Positions 955 to 39,302 of a stretch of 39,638 bases of DNA are shown one piece after another. The stretch comes from a virus. How positions within the stretch are numbered: the stretch's first letter is position 1; the number at the start of each line of letters is the position of its first letter. The translations under genes and the position numbers were made by a program. The stretch is taken from positions 1 through 39,638 of IMG/VR virus record IMGVR_UViG_3300048925_000595. One strand, 5' to 3'. The notes under the pieces are model-generated. The model did not search any database. It was not told where the DNA came from and saw only the letters and a list, made by a program, of their open reading frames with translations.

Positions 955-1845
955 ATGAGCAAACAAAATATTATCAGCAATATAGATAACAGAATCTTGG
1001 ATGAGCTTGTCGGAAAAATATCCTTTTTAATAAAAAATGGTTTTAACGACTCACGTAAGGTGATTTTTCTGTGTGGTAAAGATAAAAGCGCAAAAGATAG
1101 TACACGTGCAAAAATATCAGAACTATTAATTTTAGACAAAAACTTCCAACTAGCATATCCAGAAGATTTATTTGAAGATGTTCTTGAGGGGCAAGCAAAG
1201 AATAGTTTATTAGACTTAGAAACTCATTTGGCAGATGCCGTAGATTTAATAGTTCTGATTCCTGAGAGTCCCGGCTCATTTGCAGAGCTTGGCGCATTCG
1301 CAATGAAAACGGAGCTAGCTGAAAAAATGCTTGTTTTAAGGCAAAGCAAATATAAATCAGATAAAAGTTTTATTAATCATGGTCCCATAAGGTTAGTTAG
1401 AGCAGCTAAGGGACAGATACTAGACATTCCTAATGTTTTAAATATTAGAGATAAAGAACACACCAAACCTATTATTGATCAAATCAAAAGCATGCTCCCC
1501 CCAGGGCGACAAAAAAAACACATCGACAATATATTGATGTTTCACGAACATATTCTTTTAATAATTTACCTTTTCGATAAAGCAAGCACTAACTCTATAA
1601 GAATCATACTGAGTAAAATTCTTGCAAGAGATTTTACCATTCAGGATAACATTGGATTTGACGCAGCACTTCATTCTTTAATAAGAGCTTCCCTTATCGA
1701 AAAATCTGGTGAAGTTTTCATTATTACTTCGGATGGATACAATGACATAAATCTAAAATATTATTCTATTAATGAATTAAATAAACTTAGAATAATAATA
1801 ATGAATAAACAATTGTGTAGACACAAGAATTTGATTGATCAATAA
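955..1845 (+). CDS. Retron effector: nucleoside deoxyribosyltransferase-like plus winged helix
   Basis: This 296-residue protein matches the effector of retron Eco1 (Ec86). The N-terminal half is a nucleoside deoxyribosyltransferase-like fold with FLCG (38-41), YPEDLFED (68-75) and the active-site segment ESPGSFAELGAF (104-115). The C-terminal third looks like the winged-helix DNA-binding domain of that family. In Eco1-type systems the effector forms a complex with the reverse transcriptase and msDNA, is held inactive, and acts toxically when phage disturbs the complex. The gene is AT-rich and lies 7 bases before the retron RNA, with the reverse transcriptase behind it. The ATG at 955 has only a weak ribosome site. 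Function by homology is strong; the trigger is unknown. Confidence 0.93.
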   Translation: MSKQNIISNIDNRILDELVGKISFLIKNGFNDSRKVIFLCGKDKSAKDSTRAKISELLILDKNFQLAYPEDLFEDVLEGQAKNSLLDLETHLADAVDLIVLIPESPGSFAELGAFAMKTELAEKMLVLRQSKYKSDKSFINHGPIRLVRAAKGQILDIPNVLNIRDKEHTKPIIDQIKSMLPPGRQKKHIDNILMFHEHILLIIYLFDKASTNSIRIILSKILARDFTIQDNIGFDAALHSLIRASLIEKSGEVFIITSDGYNDINLKYYSINELNKLRIIIMNKQLCRHKNLIDQ

Positions 1846-1852
1846 TAATTTC

Positions 1853-2084
1853 ACTAGCCCCTAAGCGGGATCAAGTTGATGTTGTAGGCCTTTAGCTTCA
1901 TTCAACAAGGTTCAGCGGATAGAGAGTTGTTACTCTATACCCAAGATTAAGCTTTGTATTGGCAACAGGATCTAGGAAACACAACTACGCTCTCGTAGTT
2001 GTGCCACCTAAGTCCTATTGCAGATGAAACGTAAGCCCGCCCCGCGGCCTTCCGTTCCATCTACTTCAGTCGTTAGGGGCTAGT
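1853..2084 (+). ncRNA. Retron msr-msd noncoding RNA
   Basis: The ends form the retron a1/a2 repeat: ACTAGCCCCTAA (1853-1864) and its exact reverse complement at 2073-2084. After a1 comes AAGCGGGA; by comparison with Eco1 the branching guanosine is G1865. The msr part can fold at 1875-1906 and 1919-1938 (ATAGAG/CTCTAT). The msd part holds a long hairpin at 1962-2021 whose tip is a perfect 10-bp stem (1980-1989 with 1994-2003) and CTCT loop, and a second hairpin at 2022-2062 (AGATG and AACG arms, one mismatch). The segment TTCAGTC just before a2 parallels TTCTGAC of Eco1, where msDNA synthesis starts. It lies directly before the reverse transcriptase. Exact msDNA ends are inferred. Confidence 0.9.
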
Positions 2085-2118
2085 ACAAATTTTCTAGTTT
2101 ATTTTATGGAGTATTTGA

Positions 2119-3054
2119 ATGATTGAGCAGGGTCAGGGAATTTACACTCAAAGAATGCTTTCACTACCGCTATTACAAGACATTCATGACCTTTCTACAA
2201 AAACTAGATTGCCATCGATACTTCTTGCGAAATACAATCATAATAACTCTAAATATTACCATCACATTTTAATGCGTAAAAAAAGTGGCGGTTTAAGGCC
2301 AATAGATAGTCCGAATGCAGAATTAAAAGCCATACAGAAATGGATATTACGCAATATACTATCATGTTTAAAACCATCACCCTACGCAAAAGGTTTTATA
2401 TTAGGAAAGTCCATTCACGACAACGCTAAACCTCATTATAACAAGCAATATATACTTTCATTAGATTTAAATAATTTCTTTGGAACTGTTAAGGCAAGCC
2501 ATGTGTTTTCCATATTCCATTCCATTGGATACTCTAAAAAAATATCCTATTTATTAACATCGATATGTACTTTAGACGGTGTCCTACCTCAGGGAGCACC
2601 GACCTCACCATACCTTTCTAATTTAGTTTGCCTCAGACTTGATCATAGGATTGGTAAATATTGTGATAATAAAGCGCTAACGTATACTCGTTATGCCGAT
2701 GATATCTGCATTTCGGGAAATAAGTTGAGTGTGATTAAGAAAGCCCAGGTTACCATTAAGAACATTATAATTAACGAAGGTTATACAGTTAATAAACGTA
2801 AAGAATTACTTTCTGGACCAAAATCAAGTAGACAGGTTACAGGTCTAGTCGTAACTCCTGATATCGGCATTGGTAGGGAAAAGTACAATCATTATAGGAA
2901 AACCATTTTCATGGAATTCAAGAAGAATCCTGCTGAGTCAGAATTTATGATTTCAGGAATACTCTCCTTTGTCAAAAGCGTGGATGTAAAAAGACATAAG
3001 AAATTATACAGCTATTATAAGAGCCTTATAATTAAAAATCCTAGCATGTGCTAA
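2119..3054 (+). CDS. Retron reverse transcriptase, Eco1/Ec86-like
   Basis: A 311-residue retron reverse transcriptase that copies the msd part of the RNA upstream into branched msDNA primed from a 2'-OH. Visible motifs: LDLNNFF (115-121) with the first catalytic Asp, the retron NAxxH motif (NAKPH, 102-106), LPQGAPTSP (156-164), the catalytic RYADD (191-195), and the VTG motif (240-242) followed by IGREKY as in Eco1. Length is normal for the family (Eco1 is 320). GGAG stands 8 bases before the ATG. Its last 14 bases overlap the end of the convergent repressor gene, so the retron is packed tightly against the phage immunity region. Confidence 0.96.
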   Translation: MIEQGQGIYTQRMLSLPLLQDIHDLSTKTRLPSILLAKYNHNNSKYYHHILMRKKSGGLRPIDSPNAELKAIQKWILRNILSCLKPSPYAKGFILGKSIHDNAKPHYNKQYILSLDLNNFFGTVKASHVFSIFHSIGYSKKISYLLTSICTLDGVLPQGAPTSPYLSNLVCLRLDHRIGKYCDNKALTYTRYADDICISGNKLSVIKKAQVTIKNIIINEGYTVNKRKELLSGPKSSRQVTGLVVTPDIGIGREKYNHYRKTIFMEFKKNPAESEFMISGILSFVKSVDVKRHKKLYSYYKSLIIKNPSMC

Positions 3055-34516: not shown

Positions 34517-34918
34517 TCAGAAGAATTCCATTTCATCGTATGGACTTATTTTGCAGGAACGGAGCCGGCTTTCAAGATCACCACAATGAACCTCTAACTG
34601 ATGGCCATCGGGATCGAGAAAGTAAATTGACTCCCCTTCACTCTTATTGGTTTTCCACTCGATAGCACCGGCATGCTGTATTTTCTCTCGAAATGACGGC
34701 ATGTCGGCTGATTCGATAGTAAAGGCGTAATGAGTGTAATCCGCCTTAGGGTCTATGGAAGTGTCTAAGGATAAACATAACCACAGGTCACCAAGTGACA
34801 GGTAAGCCCCTCTCGCCCATTTAGCCCGAGGCGTAAAACCAAGAACATCTACATAGAAACTAAAACTGAGCGGTAAATGACTGACCGCGAGAGTGAGGTG
34901 ATTCAATCCGGACAGCAT
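34517..34918 (-). CDS. fosA: FosA-type fosfomycin glutathione transferase
   Basis: A 133-residue enzyme of the vicinal-oxygen-chelate superfamily that adds glutathione to fosfomycin. Metal ligands are in place: H7 (GLNHLTLAV), H63 (DYTHYAF) and E109 (HQLEVH). Further FosA features are T9, W46, the KSEGES potassium loop (92-97), Y99 and R118. It begins like known FosA proteins (MLSGLNHLTLAVS) but is diverged in the middle. It stands between D and ogr, reading left, so it is a cargo gene in the prophage. Activity on fosfomycin is predicted, not shown. Confidence 0.88.
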   Translation of the reverse strand: MLSGLNHLTLAVSHLPLSFSFYVDVLGFTPRAKWARGAYLSLGDLWLCLSLDTSIDPKADYTHYAFTIESADMPSFREKIQHAGAIEWKTNKSEGESIYFLDPDGHQLEVHCGDLESRLRSCKISPYDEMEFF

Positions 34919-35321: not shown

Positions 35322-35687
35322 TCACCAACTAAGTTGCTCACCGCTGGCTTTCAGATTTTGTTTGTACATCATATCCAGAGTCGCGTAAGTGCACATATTA
35401 ACCGCACCTTCACAATAATCCCCGATAACCTTATCTAATATTCCTTTATTTTTGGCTTTGGTCAGATTTTTAAAAGCGGTCAGATTTTGCTTTTCCATCA
35501 TACGAAGCGTTGTTGGTTGGCACATATTAACGGCACCATCACAGTAATCAGCCTTCACCCTCGCCTTGATGTATTCAATTACTTCTTGTTTTTGCGCTTC
35601 GGAACCATCGAATTCCATAGGGTTGACAAATGCAGCACTCACGGCAAACGGAAGCACTAAAGCAGCAAATCCCAGAACAAACTTCAT
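35322..35687 (-). CDS. Secreted small protein with duplicated YCxGAVNMC motif
   Basis: A 121-residue protein, start at ATG 35687 because AAGGA stands 7 bases before it. A signal peptide is clear (MKFVLGFAALVLPFAVSA, cleavage probably before AFVNP). The mature part has two repeats: YCDGAVNMCQPTTLRMMEKQNLTA and YCEGAVNMCTYATLDMMYKQ, each with a Cys pair likely to be disulfide-bonded. I do not recognise a family. It sits between ogr and int reading left; an expressed lysogenic (moron) gene is likely. Confidence 0.8.
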   Translation of the reverse strand: MKFVLGFAALVLPFAVSAAFVNPMEFDGSEAQKQEVIEYIKARVKADYCDGAVNMCQPTTLRMMEKQNLTAFKNLTKAKNKGILDKVIGDYCEGAVNMCTYATLDMMYKQNLKASGEQLSW

Positions 35688-35849
35688 CATTAAGTCCTTA
35701 TAGTGAAAGCAAACTGTTAAGACTAATCTTAACAACCTGACATTAAAATTTCACCGTTTCCGCCGAAACCTTTCCAAAGATATTTGCTTAGACAAACCAA
35801 TCGGTTGCTACCCTTGCATGTATACGACTGACTAAATCAAACATTTACA

Positions 35850-35865: not shown

Positions 35866-35896
35866 TAAAATTCACATTCTCAAAAAGGAGGATGTG

Positions 35897-36922
35897 ATGA
35901 GTGTAAGAAAACTGTCTACAGGCAAATGGTTATGTGAGTGCTACCCGAACGGACGCGAGGGCAAGCGATGCCGCAGGCAGTTTGATTCCAAGGGTGAAGC
36001 TGTTTCTTTTGAAACTTACACCATGGAACAGGCGAAAAACAAACCCTGGCTGGGTGAGAAGGAAGACCGGCGGAAGCTGAGCGAACTGGTCGATCTCTGG
36101 TACAGCCTGCACGGCTGTTCTCTGAATGATAAAAAGGGACGGTTGGGAAAACTGAAGATTATCAGCGCGGGAATGGGTGACCCGATCGCCAGCACAATCA
36201 CACCAAAGGACTGGGCGCACTATCGTGATCAGCGGCTGCGCGGCGAGATTGATAATGGCTACAGTACCAGTCTGGCGACTCGTAAAGTTTCCACCGGCAC
36301 GGTGAACTGTGAGCATGCTTTTCTGCGGGCGGTGTTCAATGAGCTGAAACGCCTGGGGGAATGGTCGTTACCTAACCCGCTGGAAAATATCCGCGAGTTT
36401 GATCAGCCGGAACGTGAAATGGCATGGCTGACTCAGGAACAAATCCTGAGACTCATGTCGGCATGTGAACAGCATGGAAATGACGAATTAACGCTTATTG
36501 TTAAAGTCTGCCTTTCGACCGGCGCACGCTGGAACGAGGCGGCAAAAATCAAAAGCTCGCAAATCTCCCCGTATAAACTCACCTTCATCAATACCAAAGG
36601 AAAAAAGAACCGTACTATTCCCCTTTCCCGCCCTTTATATGACGAACTGATCGCCCGTAAAGGTGCGCCCTTCTCGCCCTGCTATAAACAGTTCTATCGG
36701 GTGATCCGGCTGGCCGGTATCGAGCTGCCGGAAGGACAGATGACGCACGTTCTGCGACATACGTTCGCCAGTCATTTCATGATGGCCGGTGGCAATATCA
36801 TCGTGCTGCAACGCATCCTCGGGCACTCAGATATCCGCGTCACGATGCGCTATGCGCATTTCGCTCCCGATCACCTGGAAGACGCTATTCACCTGAATCC
36901 GCTGGCTCAAATTGCAGTTTGA
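35897..36922 (+). CDS. int: P2-type tyrosine integrase
   Basis: A 341-residue tyrosine recombinase (P2 Int 337). N-terminal arm-binding part (RKLSTGKWLCECYPNGREG), then core and catalytic domain: Arg in STGARWNEAAK, HVLRHTF (His-x-x-Arg), GHSD and the nucleophile Tyr in MRYAHF. Start at ATG 35897, 5 bases after a strong AAGGAGG. It reads rightward, toward attR, with a three-gene cassette between it and the attachment site. In P2 int reads leftward beside the repressor, so the module is relocated here. Confidence 0.96.
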   Translation: MSVRKLSTGKWLCECYPNGREGKRCRRQFDSKGEAVSFETYTMEQAKNKPWLGEKEDRRKLSELVDLWYSLHGCSLNDKKGRLGKLKIISAGMGDPIASTITPKDWAHYRDQRLRGEIDNGYSTSLATRKVSTGTVNCEHAFLRAVFNELKRLGEWSLPNPLENIREFDQPEREMAWLTQEQILRLMSACEQHGNDELTLIVKVCLSTGARWNEAAKIKSSQISPYKLTFINTKGKKNRTIPLSRPLYDELIARKGAPFSPCYKQFYRVIRLAGIELPEGQMTHVLRHTFASHFMMAGGNIIVLQRILGHSDIRVTMRYAHFAPDHLEDAIHLNPLAQIAV

Positions 36923-36937
36923 AATATATTTAAGCTA

Positions 36938-37483
36938 TTAATGAGTTTGTAGACCTTGCGGGGTTTCATTAAGCTCAGCTACAAATTGTTCCAAGGTTTG
37001 CGCTTCGCCTAAAGGTGGGTATTTTGCGTCAAAGATTTCAAAAGCATGAGTGATTAGATTCATTGCTGCATTTAAGCATAATTGACTATGAATCGCTTGC
37101 TCGCTCATAGAGATAGCGCCAACATTTTCACAATTTAAAGTTGCATAATTACTTAAATCCTCAAGGTAAATGTCTTCAATATCAATACCTCTTCTTTTGA
37201 GAACTTTAATAAATTCATATGATTGGCCAATTTTTGACATGATAACCATTGTATAGTGTTGGACATTTTGATGTGTCTTACCACCAGATAACCAGTATGC
37301 AATGCTCACATCAGATGTCTCATTCACTATTTTTATAAGGCTGTCGATTGCCGTTTTACTCTCAGACCGTGTTGCCATCCGTTTGGCGTTTCGATAAACA
37401 ACTTTCCAGCCGATAAAAACTAGCAGAAAGCTGCAAAGGCTAATAATCCAAGCATAATCCTTCATTGCTGCAACATCTTCCAT
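36938..37483 (-). CDS. Membrane-anchored protein of GHKL/STAS cassette
   Basis: A 181-residue protein with one N-terminal membrane helix (WIISLCSFLLVFIGWKVVY, about 12-30) and a helical cytoplasmic domain of about 150 residues containing many His and Gln residues. No family is recognised. It is the third gene of a tight leftward operon: its ATG follows the stop of the STAS-like gene with no gap. The layout suggests an output protein at the membrane controlled by the two upstream proteins. It ends 15 bp from the convergent int. Confidence 0.78.
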   Translation of the reverse strand: MEDVAAMKDYAWIISLCSFLLVFIGWKVVYRNAKRMATRSESKTAIDSLIKIVNETSDVSIAYWLSGGKTHQNVQHYTMVIMSKIGQSYEFIKVLKRRGIDIEDIYLEDLSNYATLNCENVGAISMSEQAIHSQLCLNAAMNLITHAFEIFDAKYPPLGEAQTLEQFVAELNETPQGLQTH

Positions 37484-37819
37484 CTACTCAGTTACCTTCT
37501 TAGGCTCAGCTTCCAATATGAATTTTTTGATTTGGTTTTGATAAATAGGCAGTTTTGTCTGAATTTTCAATCTGTTAAGAACATCTTTTTTATCAACACC
37601 TTCGACGCGGACTAATCCCCCGAAAGCCTCTTCTAAAAAAGATGAACCAATGCCTAGTGCAACACCGGTAAAATCCACGATGATATCTTCATCATCATGT
37701 TTTAAAAATTCAGGTAAAAGGATTTCCTTTCTGAAGCGCTCTGCACTGTTCGGCCCATCGGAAGGAAATCGTCCAAAAGGTGTAGCAGAAAATTTTTTAG
37801 CTATTGATATATATGACAT
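37484..37819 (-). CDS. STAS-like DUF4325-type protein
   Basis: A 111-residue protein fitting the STAS-like DUF4325 family: FGRFPSDGPNSAERFRKEIL, then DIIVDFTGVALGIGSSFLEE, which is the strand-helix core of a STAS fold. STAS proteins commonly bind GHKL kinases and are switched by phosphorylation of a Ser or Thr; S59 or nearby is a candidate. ATG 37819 with AGAGGG upstream is preferred to TTG 37825. It begins 2 bases after the ATPase gene and ends flush with the membrane protein gene. Confidence 0.82.
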   Translation of the reverse strand: MSYISIAKKFSATPFGRFPSDGPNSAERFRKEILLPEFLKHDDEDIIVDFTGVALGIGSSFLEEAFGGLVRVEGVDKKDVLNRLKIQTKLPIYQNQIKKFILEAEPKKVTE

Positions 37820-37821
37820 AG

Positions 37822-38760
37822 TCAATCCCTCTTAGGTACTAAAGACCACTGAACAATTGTGCCCTGGATTCTTGCTGGTAAATATTCTGATACCGGTGCA
37901 TATCCTGCGCTAGTTCCTGGTTCATAACGATAAAGTGCGCGTCCTGTAAATACAAGTAGCCGCTCATTTTGAGTGCATCCTGAACCGATAGGCCTCTTAA
38001 TGTCCTCCGATCCATTACCTCTCCCTGGAGCATGAAAACGAGAACACCCACTAGTTAAGGCCTTTTCTACGCTACTTAGTTCCGCAAAAAGATTCTCATC
38101 GGAAGTAAGGTCCTTATTTGCATAGGAATTACCTATTCCAATACCTAAGTCACATATAATAAAGACTACCCGATCATTAACTTCATCGAACCAAGCACAC
38201 TGCCACCATCGCTTCCCCCCCAAAAACTCCAAAGAACTTTGTGAACGAGAATCTTCATATGCATGGTTTCGTACATTTAGCATCGCTTCATTGATTCCCA
38301 TAGCGAGAAAAAGTACTTGCTCTTCTGTAAACAAAGCTTTCTCGGCTAGCATGTTTACAGTTTTAACTAAAGCCTGCTCCGGATCGACTGATGACTGGAA
38401 ATATCTCTTTTCGTTAACCAGTGCTTCTAATTTTTCAGAACTATTAGCTAAAAGGGCTTTTCCTAAACCCGTGCTAACAATCCATCTGTAACCTTGTGGG
38501 TTTGTGCTTTTTTTAGGGAGAGAAATTCTAATCAAAAGTGAATCTCCCATTAAGAATTGCGCTCGATTAAGCACTGCGAACAAAAGCACTGAAGCGGCAG
38601 CGCTAGCAAAAGTCACCTCACTCAGGTCAACCTTAACGTTTAACCCCTGTGTATAGATAACCCTGTCAATTTCTCGGATGAAACTTAGCGTCTCAAATCG
38701 AAGCTTAGCTTGATAGATGCATAGTTGCGGTGGAGCTTTTAAAGGAACAATGTTTACCAC
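37822..38760 (-). CDS. GHKL-type ATPase with N-terminal STAS-like region
   Basis: A 312-residue protein, first of the leftward cassette, from GTG 38760 with GAGG 5 bases upstream. Residues about 1-100 look STAS-like (VKVDLSEVTFASAAASVLLF). The C-terminal part is a histidine-kinase-type ATPase: N box with E158 and N162 (GINEAMLNVRNHAYED), G1 box D204-x-G-x-G (CDLGIGI), G2 box GRGNGSEDI (246-254). No dimerisation helix or phospho-His is visible, so it looks like an anti-sigma-type (RsbW-like) Ser/Thr kinase or ATP switch. Paired with a DUF4325 protein, it forms a partner-switching module. Confidence 0.86.
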   Translation of the reverse strand: MVNIVPLKAPPQLCIYQAKLRFETLSFIREIDRVIYTQGLNVKVDLSEVTFASAAASVLLFAVLNRAQFLMGDSLLIRISLPKKSTNPQGYRWIVSTGLGKALLANSSEKLEALVNEKRYFQSSVDPEQALVKTVNMLAEKALFTEEQVLFLAMGINEAMLNVRNHAYEDSRSQSSLEFLGGKRWWQCAWFDEVNDRVVFIICDLGIGIGNSYANKDLTSDENLFAELSSVEKALTSGCSRFHAPGRGNGSEDIKRPIGSGCTQNERLLVFTGRALYRYEPGTSAGYAPVSEYLPARIQGTIVQWSLVPKRD

Positions 38761-39056
38761 TCAAACCTCACAGACATTTTTTGAGCCAATCTTTTGAATA
38801 CTATAGCAAAAAAATGCATTTACATCTAAAACAAACCCAGAATAGCAGGAACTTACATACTCTCAAGAAGGATATGTTGTGCCAGTAGTAAATAGTATAG
38901 TTTTCAAATTACCCCCTACATCGGCCCATATGGGATAGAGCGAATATACCATGGCGACAAAGTGGCGGCAGAAAGTCCAAATGAGTAGCATTGAAGGTAA
39001 CAGGAAGTGATGTAAGTGATTGTTTTAACGATAAGTTATTGAATTAAGAAATGTTC
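38761..39056. promoter_or_regulatory. Cassette leader and attR arm region
   Basis: This 296-bp AT-rich stretch holds the upstream region of the leftward GHKL cassette, an isolated GTTGTGCCA (38876-38884) like the late control sites but without their right half, and the arm-like element at 38951-38970. No open reading frame of note is present. Confidence 0.5.
38951..38970 (+). promoter_or_regulatory. Putative integrase arm-type site, attR side
   Basis: ATGGCGACAAAGTGGCGGCA, matching the attL-side element at 833-852 in 17 of 20 positions and same orientation. It lies about 85 bp from the attR core. Confidence 0.5.
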
Positions 39057-39074
39057 AAAAAAAAGACCGAATAC
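39057..39074. other. attR core: right copy of 18-bp attachment repeat
   Basis: Identical to 777-794. It forms the 3' arm and U-tract of the SdsR terminator on the minus strand. The host sequence continues to the right with the rest of sdsR, so integration leaves this RNA gene whole. Confidence 0.92.
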
Positions 39075-39160
39075 GATTCCTATATTCGGTCTAGGGAAAT
39101 GGCTCTTGGGAGAGAGCCGTGCGCTAAAAGTTGGCATTAATGCAGGCGGTTAAGCCGTAC
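39057..39160 (-). ncRNA. sdsR: SdsR (RyeB) small RNA
   Basis: On the minus strand this reads through CTGCATTAATGCCAACTTTT, the segment AGCGCACGGCTCTCTCCCAA, CATTTCCCTAGACCGAATA and a terminator hairpin ending in GTATTCGGTC plus U-tract, which matches E. coli SdsR as I recall it. The length of about 104 nt also fits. SdsR is a stationary-phase, sigma-S-dependent, Hfq-bound RNA. Only the 5' about 18 bases differ from E. coli. TACTCT lies 8 bases before the 5' end as a likely -10. The last 18 bases come from the phage attachment core. The antisense RNA SraC/RyeA is expected on the other strand but not resolvable here. Confidence 0.9.
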
Positions 39161-39302
39161 AACTTAAAGAGTAGACGACAGATGACTATTTTCCACCCAG
39201 TTTGAAACATAGTGATAATAACAATGATGTATTATTTTCATTGTGTGACAACATACGCAAAACATGGGATTTACATCAGTCAGTTATCGTCGGCACGGCT
39301 GT

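Follow-up and report, generated by a model that had tools for sequence, protein, structure and literature searches.

The closest described relatives of the locus analysed here pair a GHKL kinase with a STAS protein. In the CapK/CapS pair, the GHKL kinase CapK senses single-stranded DNA (ssDNA) from DNA damage, is activated by it, and transfers phosphate to a serine residue of its STAS partner CapS (EMBO J 2026, PMC13373217). In the VapKSC operon, VapS serves as the STAS antitoxin of a PIN toxin and is switched by phosphorylation, as proven experimentally; the phosphomimetic substitution S48E abolishes its inhibition, and the operon is reported to protect E. coli against one phage, Bas42, by about 2 logs (PMC13373217). 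Here, we analysed a virus record of 39,638 bases (the window) and characterized a cassette of three genes, K, S and M. We consider it probable, at roughly 0.6, that K-S-M is a kinase-switch-membrane-effector module, a sister type of VapKSC, that acts in the manner proposed below.

The window represents a P2-like prophage with two identical 18-bp att repeats, attL at 777-794 and attR at 39057-39074. The cassette occupies 36938-38760 on the minus strand and is read leftward between attR and int, the tyrosine integrase gene that adjoins it (35894-36922, plus strand; phrog_1 integrase, E 1.5e-73; Pfam PF00589, E 3.3e-22). The open reading frame coordinates confirmed the arrangement given in the original prediction, namely three leftward genes separated by gaps of 2 bp (K/S) and 0 bp (S/M). 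K (37822-38760) encodes a 312-aa STAS and GHKL serine-kinase-like protein from a GTG start, S (37484-37819) encodes a 111-aa DUF4325 STAS switch protein from an ATG start, and M (36938-37483) encodes a small membrane protein of 181 aa, the proposed effector. An in-frame TTG at 37825 provides an alternative start for S and would make it overlap the K gene by 4 nt. The region upstream of the cassette (38761-38866, minus strand) contains promoter-like hexamers at 38866-38839, and the GTG is closely preceded by a Shine-Dalgarno-like GAGG motif; this promoter-like site was the sole one found in the region, fewer than in shuffled sequences, and is hence weak. Downstream of M lies int, on the opposite strand.

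As its integration site, the prophage uses the 3' end of the host small-RNA gene pair SdsR/RyeB (SraC/RyeA), in the region 39054-39199. attR is located at the 3' end of the SdsR/RyeB gene, and since the full SdsR model still matches there (SdsR_RyeB, 39058-39157, minus strand, E 1.2e-20), the small-RNA gene survives integration intact. The opposite end of the prophage carries a type II-A (St85-like) retron, a known defense system, at 955-3054, comprising an effector (955-1845), a reverse transcriptase (2119-3054) and a likely msr-msd region in between. Further cargo includes a FosA-type fosfomycin resistance glutathione transferase gene (34517-34918, minus strand; Fos_GSH above cut-off) between late gene D and ogr, and, between ogr and int, a gene whose short product has an N-terminus resembling a signal peptide and matches no family (35322-35735, minus strand). 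A short tandem array of the 7-mer GGATTTA (650-745) adjoins attL just inside the left flank. No near match of the window DNA was detected in 5,426 complete E. coli genomes.

Family searches with K yielded sub-threshold matches only (HATPase_c_2, E 4e-4; STAS_2, E 0.06), together with a full-length match to phrog_3364 (E 5e-45). An AlphaFold2 model built from a 62-sequence alignment was confident (pLDDT 93.2, pTM 0.92) and displayed a STAS-like alpha/beta domain at the N-terminus and a GHKL domain after it; Foldseek matches of the model include SpoIIAB (TM 0.71-0.74 normalised to target) and CheA P4. A PDB profile search additionally matched the GHKL part to RsbW (E 0.006). The N, G1 and G2 boxes read by the original prediction were invariant in all 62 homologues, with E158 and N162 in the N box, D204 and G206 in G1, and G248 and G250 in G2. 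RsbW, SpoIIAB and serine kinases like them rely on this Glu-x3-Asn pair of the N box. The predicted fusion of the ATPase to a STAS-like region was likewise recovered in the model, at the N-terminus; the switch-serine position of this domain, by contrast, is mostly occupied by alanine, glycine or cysteine, and K's own STAS domain is for this reason probably not the phospho-acceptor. In 33 of the 62 kinases, roughly one half, the N-terminus is extended by 30 residues or more; Lys and Arg make up 32% of the extension, a basic composition consistent with nucleic-acid binding; the K protein of the window does not have this extension.

S was assigned to DUF4325 (PF14213) in Pfam above cut-off (E 2.2e-11), in agreement with its earlier description as a free STAS-like protein. 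The best PDB match to its profile was Escherichia VapS (9Z7O, E 0.015), and the VapS stretch of 9Z7O itself matches DUF4325 (E 3e-14). Across the 82 S proteins, an N-terminal motif of R17, F29 and R30 was invariant, while Ser59 was retained in 79 and Ser60 in 81. The switch serine of VapS aligns onto Ser59, and the predicted phospho-acceptor of S is Ser59 or its neighbor Ser60.

M proved to have one N-terminal hydrophobic helix, as anticipated for a single-helix membrane protein. In its model (pLDDT 92.6), helices span residues 2-65, 74-97, 104-115, 118-123, 126-154 and 164-172, such that a 64-residue N-terminal helix holds the membrane segment and is followed by a small helical bundle. Among 82 M proteins, the hydrophobic segment starts at a median of residue 10, the hydropathy peak reaches 1.3 or more in 72, and in 74 the 15 residues that follow the transmembrane segment carry more positive charge than those that precede it, so that by the positive-inside rule the bundle is predicted to be cytosolic. 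In about five of the 18 loci of a genome sample described below, the most hydrophobic segment of the protein at the M position is located further from its N-terminus, indicating that M topology varies. M is also the least conserved member of the cassette, with a mean column identity of 32%, compared with 41% for K and 53% for S in 11-sequence alignments. Searches of Pfam, NCBIfam and PHROGs with the M sequence gave chance-level or unknown-function matches only, and Foldseek against PDB and BFVD returned no match at E <0.001; the bundle weakly resembles generic four-helix bundles, several of which are sensor domains, QseE and LytS among them. The cassette proteins match phrog_3364, phrog_5816 and phrog_30059, which are all listed with unknown function as separate families and are not described as one system.

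To compare the cassette with VapKSC, we used operons from outside the window. Searching plasmids, phages, IMG/VR and Enterobacteriaceae genomes for the published operon with a VapS fragment gave no true match, and VapKSC-type relatives were then located by DUF4325 profile, which provided three K-S-PIN operons from genome draws (L216, L228 and L218). The PIN domain was detected in L216 (E 5e-8) and DUF4325 above cut-off in L216 and L228, whereas the third protein of L228 is PIN-like by position and a DTN motif only, and the S protein of L218 is known only as a genome-level family match. In hhalign comparisons, K aligned with the K-S-PIN kinases over 266 columns spanning both the STAS and GHKL parts (probability 98.6, E 1.1e-15), and S aligned with the VapS proteins of these operons at E 5e-5, a similarity at the profile level only. 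M and the PIN protein of a K-S-PIN operon were unrelated (probability 1.1%), and M matched no PIN family in Pfam, PADLOC-DB, NCBIfam or PHROGs. In a phylogenetic tree, the membrane-type kinases formed one clade (70 rows, support 96/89) apart from the PIN-type kinases, with long branches that leave the deeper order unsure.

K-S-M therefore shares three defining features with VapKSC, which is associated with phage defense: a STAS-GHKL kinase without a helix-turn-helix (HTH), a STAS/DUF4325 partner with a conserved Ser/Thr, and the operon order of kinase, STAS protein and third protein. It differs in having a small membrane protein where VapKSC has the VapC/PIN nuclease, and on this account we did not file it as VapKSC; in addition, the R17, F29 and R30 motif of S was not seen in the aligned VapS stretch. 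The cassette also follows the logic of CapK/CapS, a GHKL kinase with a STAS substrate associated with immunity. However, K begins directly with the STAS fold and lacks the N-terminal HTH of CapK, S consists of DUF4325 only and lacks the winged HTH of CapS, and, in contrast to the siting of CapK/CapS upstream of a separate immune operon, M is followed by int. With RsbW/RsbV and SpoIIAB/SpoIIAA, K-S-M has in common the GHKL serine-kinase fold and a STAS partner bearing a switch serine, but its kinase has an extra STAS domain, its third partner is a membrane protein, and neither a sigma factor nor a PP2C phosphatase is nearby. The original prediction knew of no described antiviral system of this make-up; there is precedent for the kinase and switch, as both belong to the VapKSC/CapKS kind. 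Its layout of sensor, switch and output, on the other hand, agrees with the full-length homology of K to VapKSC-type kinases and with the near-invariant gene linkage described next, the membrane output and an antiviral function being the parts that we infer. Identity with a catalogued defense system was rejected, given that PADLOC-DB 2.0.0 (2023), a library that predates VapKSC, contains no profile that K, S or M matched at E up to 1. In a search of openly accessible published papers and of defense catalogues up to 2023, we found no description of the K-S-M trio as a system, and we provisionally regard it as undescribed.

The linkage of the three genes was assessed in 82 distinct viral S loci, obtained by an IMG/VR search with the S alignment together with other loci. 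K lies immediately upstream of S in 77 of them; the five remaining cases comprise three loci cut by a contig end (L068, L099 and L107), one with K beyond the distance filter (L092) and one outlier with neither partner (L076). An open reading frame with a hydrophobic segment is found downstream in 81 of 82 loci, and the K-S-M order is compatible with 81 of 82, K being seen in 78. In an independent sample of 395 genomes from the order of one host, 18 carried S, one of which was previously known, and in every one of these 18, S is flanked immediately upstream by K (E 1e-34 or better) and immediately downstream by a small membrane protein. Such conservation of gene order across many loci led us to reject chance or artefact as the origin of the trio. 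The cassette is carried by phages, by P2-like prophages and by plasmids, in hosts from the Alpha-, Beta- and Gammaproteobacteria as well as Leptospira; named carriers include plasmids or phage-plasmids of Pasteurella, Vibrio, Acinetobacter, Novosphingobium and Leptospira and genomes of Serratia, Budvicia, Enterobacter, Oceanospirillaceae and Chitinibacter. In a P2-like prophage of E. coli A41, the cassette again lies at the prophage end, beyond ogr. The same three-gene layout occurs beside CI/Cro genes in Marinobacter phage AS1 (genes 39-41) and in Francisella phage KIRK (Fhv_0046-0048; PMC7924643), where the proteins are annotated merely as hypothetical, DUF4325 and transmembrane proteins.

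The original prediction had named sigma-factor or housekeeping loci as the surroundings that would speak against it. Neighbors proved to be phage immunity and replication genes, toxin-antitoxin modules and a few known defense genes, and a housekeeping anti-sigma system was rejected on this genomic context. Phage replication O/P, CI-type S24 repressors, CII, antirepressors and integrases lead the neighbor families across 17 genome loci. Neither a sigma factor nor a PP2C phosphatase was present beside the window cassette or among the 25 commonest neighbor families of these loci. PADLOC families, including PD-Lambda-5 and HEC-01, were found at some of the genome loci, and known defense families cover only part of the flanking genes. 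On two Acinetobacter plasmids, a RelE/NadS toxin-antitoxin pair lies close to the cassette.

Based on these comparisons, we propose the following mechanism. At rest, S would bind the cytosolic helical domain of M and hold M inactive. A stress signal would activate K; by analogy with CapK, this may be ssDNA from phage replication or DNA damage. Active K, with ATP, would then phosphorylate the conserved serine of S (Ser59, or neighboring Ser60), and phosphorylated S would release M, which may halt growth or the invading phage through an action on the inner membrane. A corresponding phosphatase gene was not found next to the cassette. The switch therefore probably works in one direction only, a behavior befitting abortive infection.

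Three other explanations were considered, each of them weaker than a VapKSC-like switch with a membrane effector, the simplest account. M could mediate superinfection exclusion, blocking DNA entry or development of related phages to the benefit of the resident prophage, while K and S just control how active or how abundant it is. In keeping with this, M is a small protein that is anchored in the membrane and evolves fast, and the cassette is often found in the immunity region beside CI, a usual site of exclusion genes. We nevertheless regard exclusion as unlikely: the cassette also resides on plasmids seemingly unrelated to phages and beside toxin-antitoxin genes, and we know of no exclusion protein governed by a kinase/STAS switch. 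Moreover, the closest studied relative, VapKSC, acts through a toxin (PMC13373217). Residence mostly in prophages, adjoining CI, replication or integrase genes, would also suit a role in the phage's own life cycle, with K sensing DNA damage and M, through S, aiding induction or lysis of its prophage, much as the related CapK senses DNA-damage ssDNA (PMC13373217). Yet the cassette is present on plasmids, and in P2-like prophages (the window and E. coli A41) it occupies the cargo end, away from lysis and repressor genes. A partial DNA match at best was found in only one of the 5,426 E. coli genomes, which marks the cassette as accessory and not a core phage gene and makes the life-cycle role decidedly improbable.

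Finally, K-S-M could be an RsbW/RsbV-type relay in which M is the input, K and S relay the signal, and the output is a transcription factor or sigma factor encoded elsewhere. The resemblance of the GHKL part to RsbW and SpoIIAB points in this direction, and because M has no named relative and its bundle shows a weak likeness to sensor domains, M might be a sensor rather than an effector. However, the bundle is predicted to be cytosolic, the listed neighbors include no sigma factor or PP2C phosphatase, and the sister operons encode a PIN toxin in third place. Hosts ranging from Leptospira to Gammaproteobacteria also make reliance on one host sigma factor unlikely, and we give such a relay very little credence.

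If the VapKSC-like reading with a membrane effector is right, the STAS-GHKL kinase and its phospho-switch constitute a modular cassette with at least two unrelated outputs, a PIN RNase and a membrane protein, and partner switching, best known from sigma-factor control, extends to membrane-acting immunity or addiction borne by phages and plasmids. Functions would thereby be suggested for phrog_3364, phrog_5816, phrog_30059 and most of the free-standing phage DUF4325 proteins found here. The model singles out E158 and N162 of K, Ser59 and Ser60 of S, and the juxtamembrane region of M. We see about an even chance that K-S-M represents a class of immune module that is widespread, undescribed and switched by a kinase; in it, sensing of DNA damage or phage replication would free a membrane-acting effector, and together with VapKSC it would couple one kinase/STAS switch to unrelated effectors.

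Several variant loci were also observed. In Vibrio, S and a membrane protein occur with no adjoining kinase (L166, 6001-6723), and similar S proteins are present in at least four Vibrio records; this is a degraded or rewired form of the cassette. A divergent trio of kinase, STAS protein and membrane protein (L120, 118-1986), with a membrane protein that the M profile fails to match, suggests further effector variety. Pairs of a kinase and a DUF4325 protein from another clade were found in L230 (1408-3164) and L140 (1444-2681). In L230, the pair immediately follows a CI-like S24 repressor, and a third gene is not obvious. Solitary STAS-GHKL proteins of about 330-365 aa were seen in L126 and L161, with no DUF4325 neighbor in the stretch seen. 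DUF4325 by itself was rejected as a marker of the cassette, because in many bacterial proteins this domain forms the C-terminal part of a wHTH-GHKL fusion, which is a distinct architecture; such single proteins of about 340-390 aa, combining a wHTH, a GHKL ATPase and a C-terminal DUF4325, are frequent (L128, L129, L130, L132 and L134) and are probably regulators.
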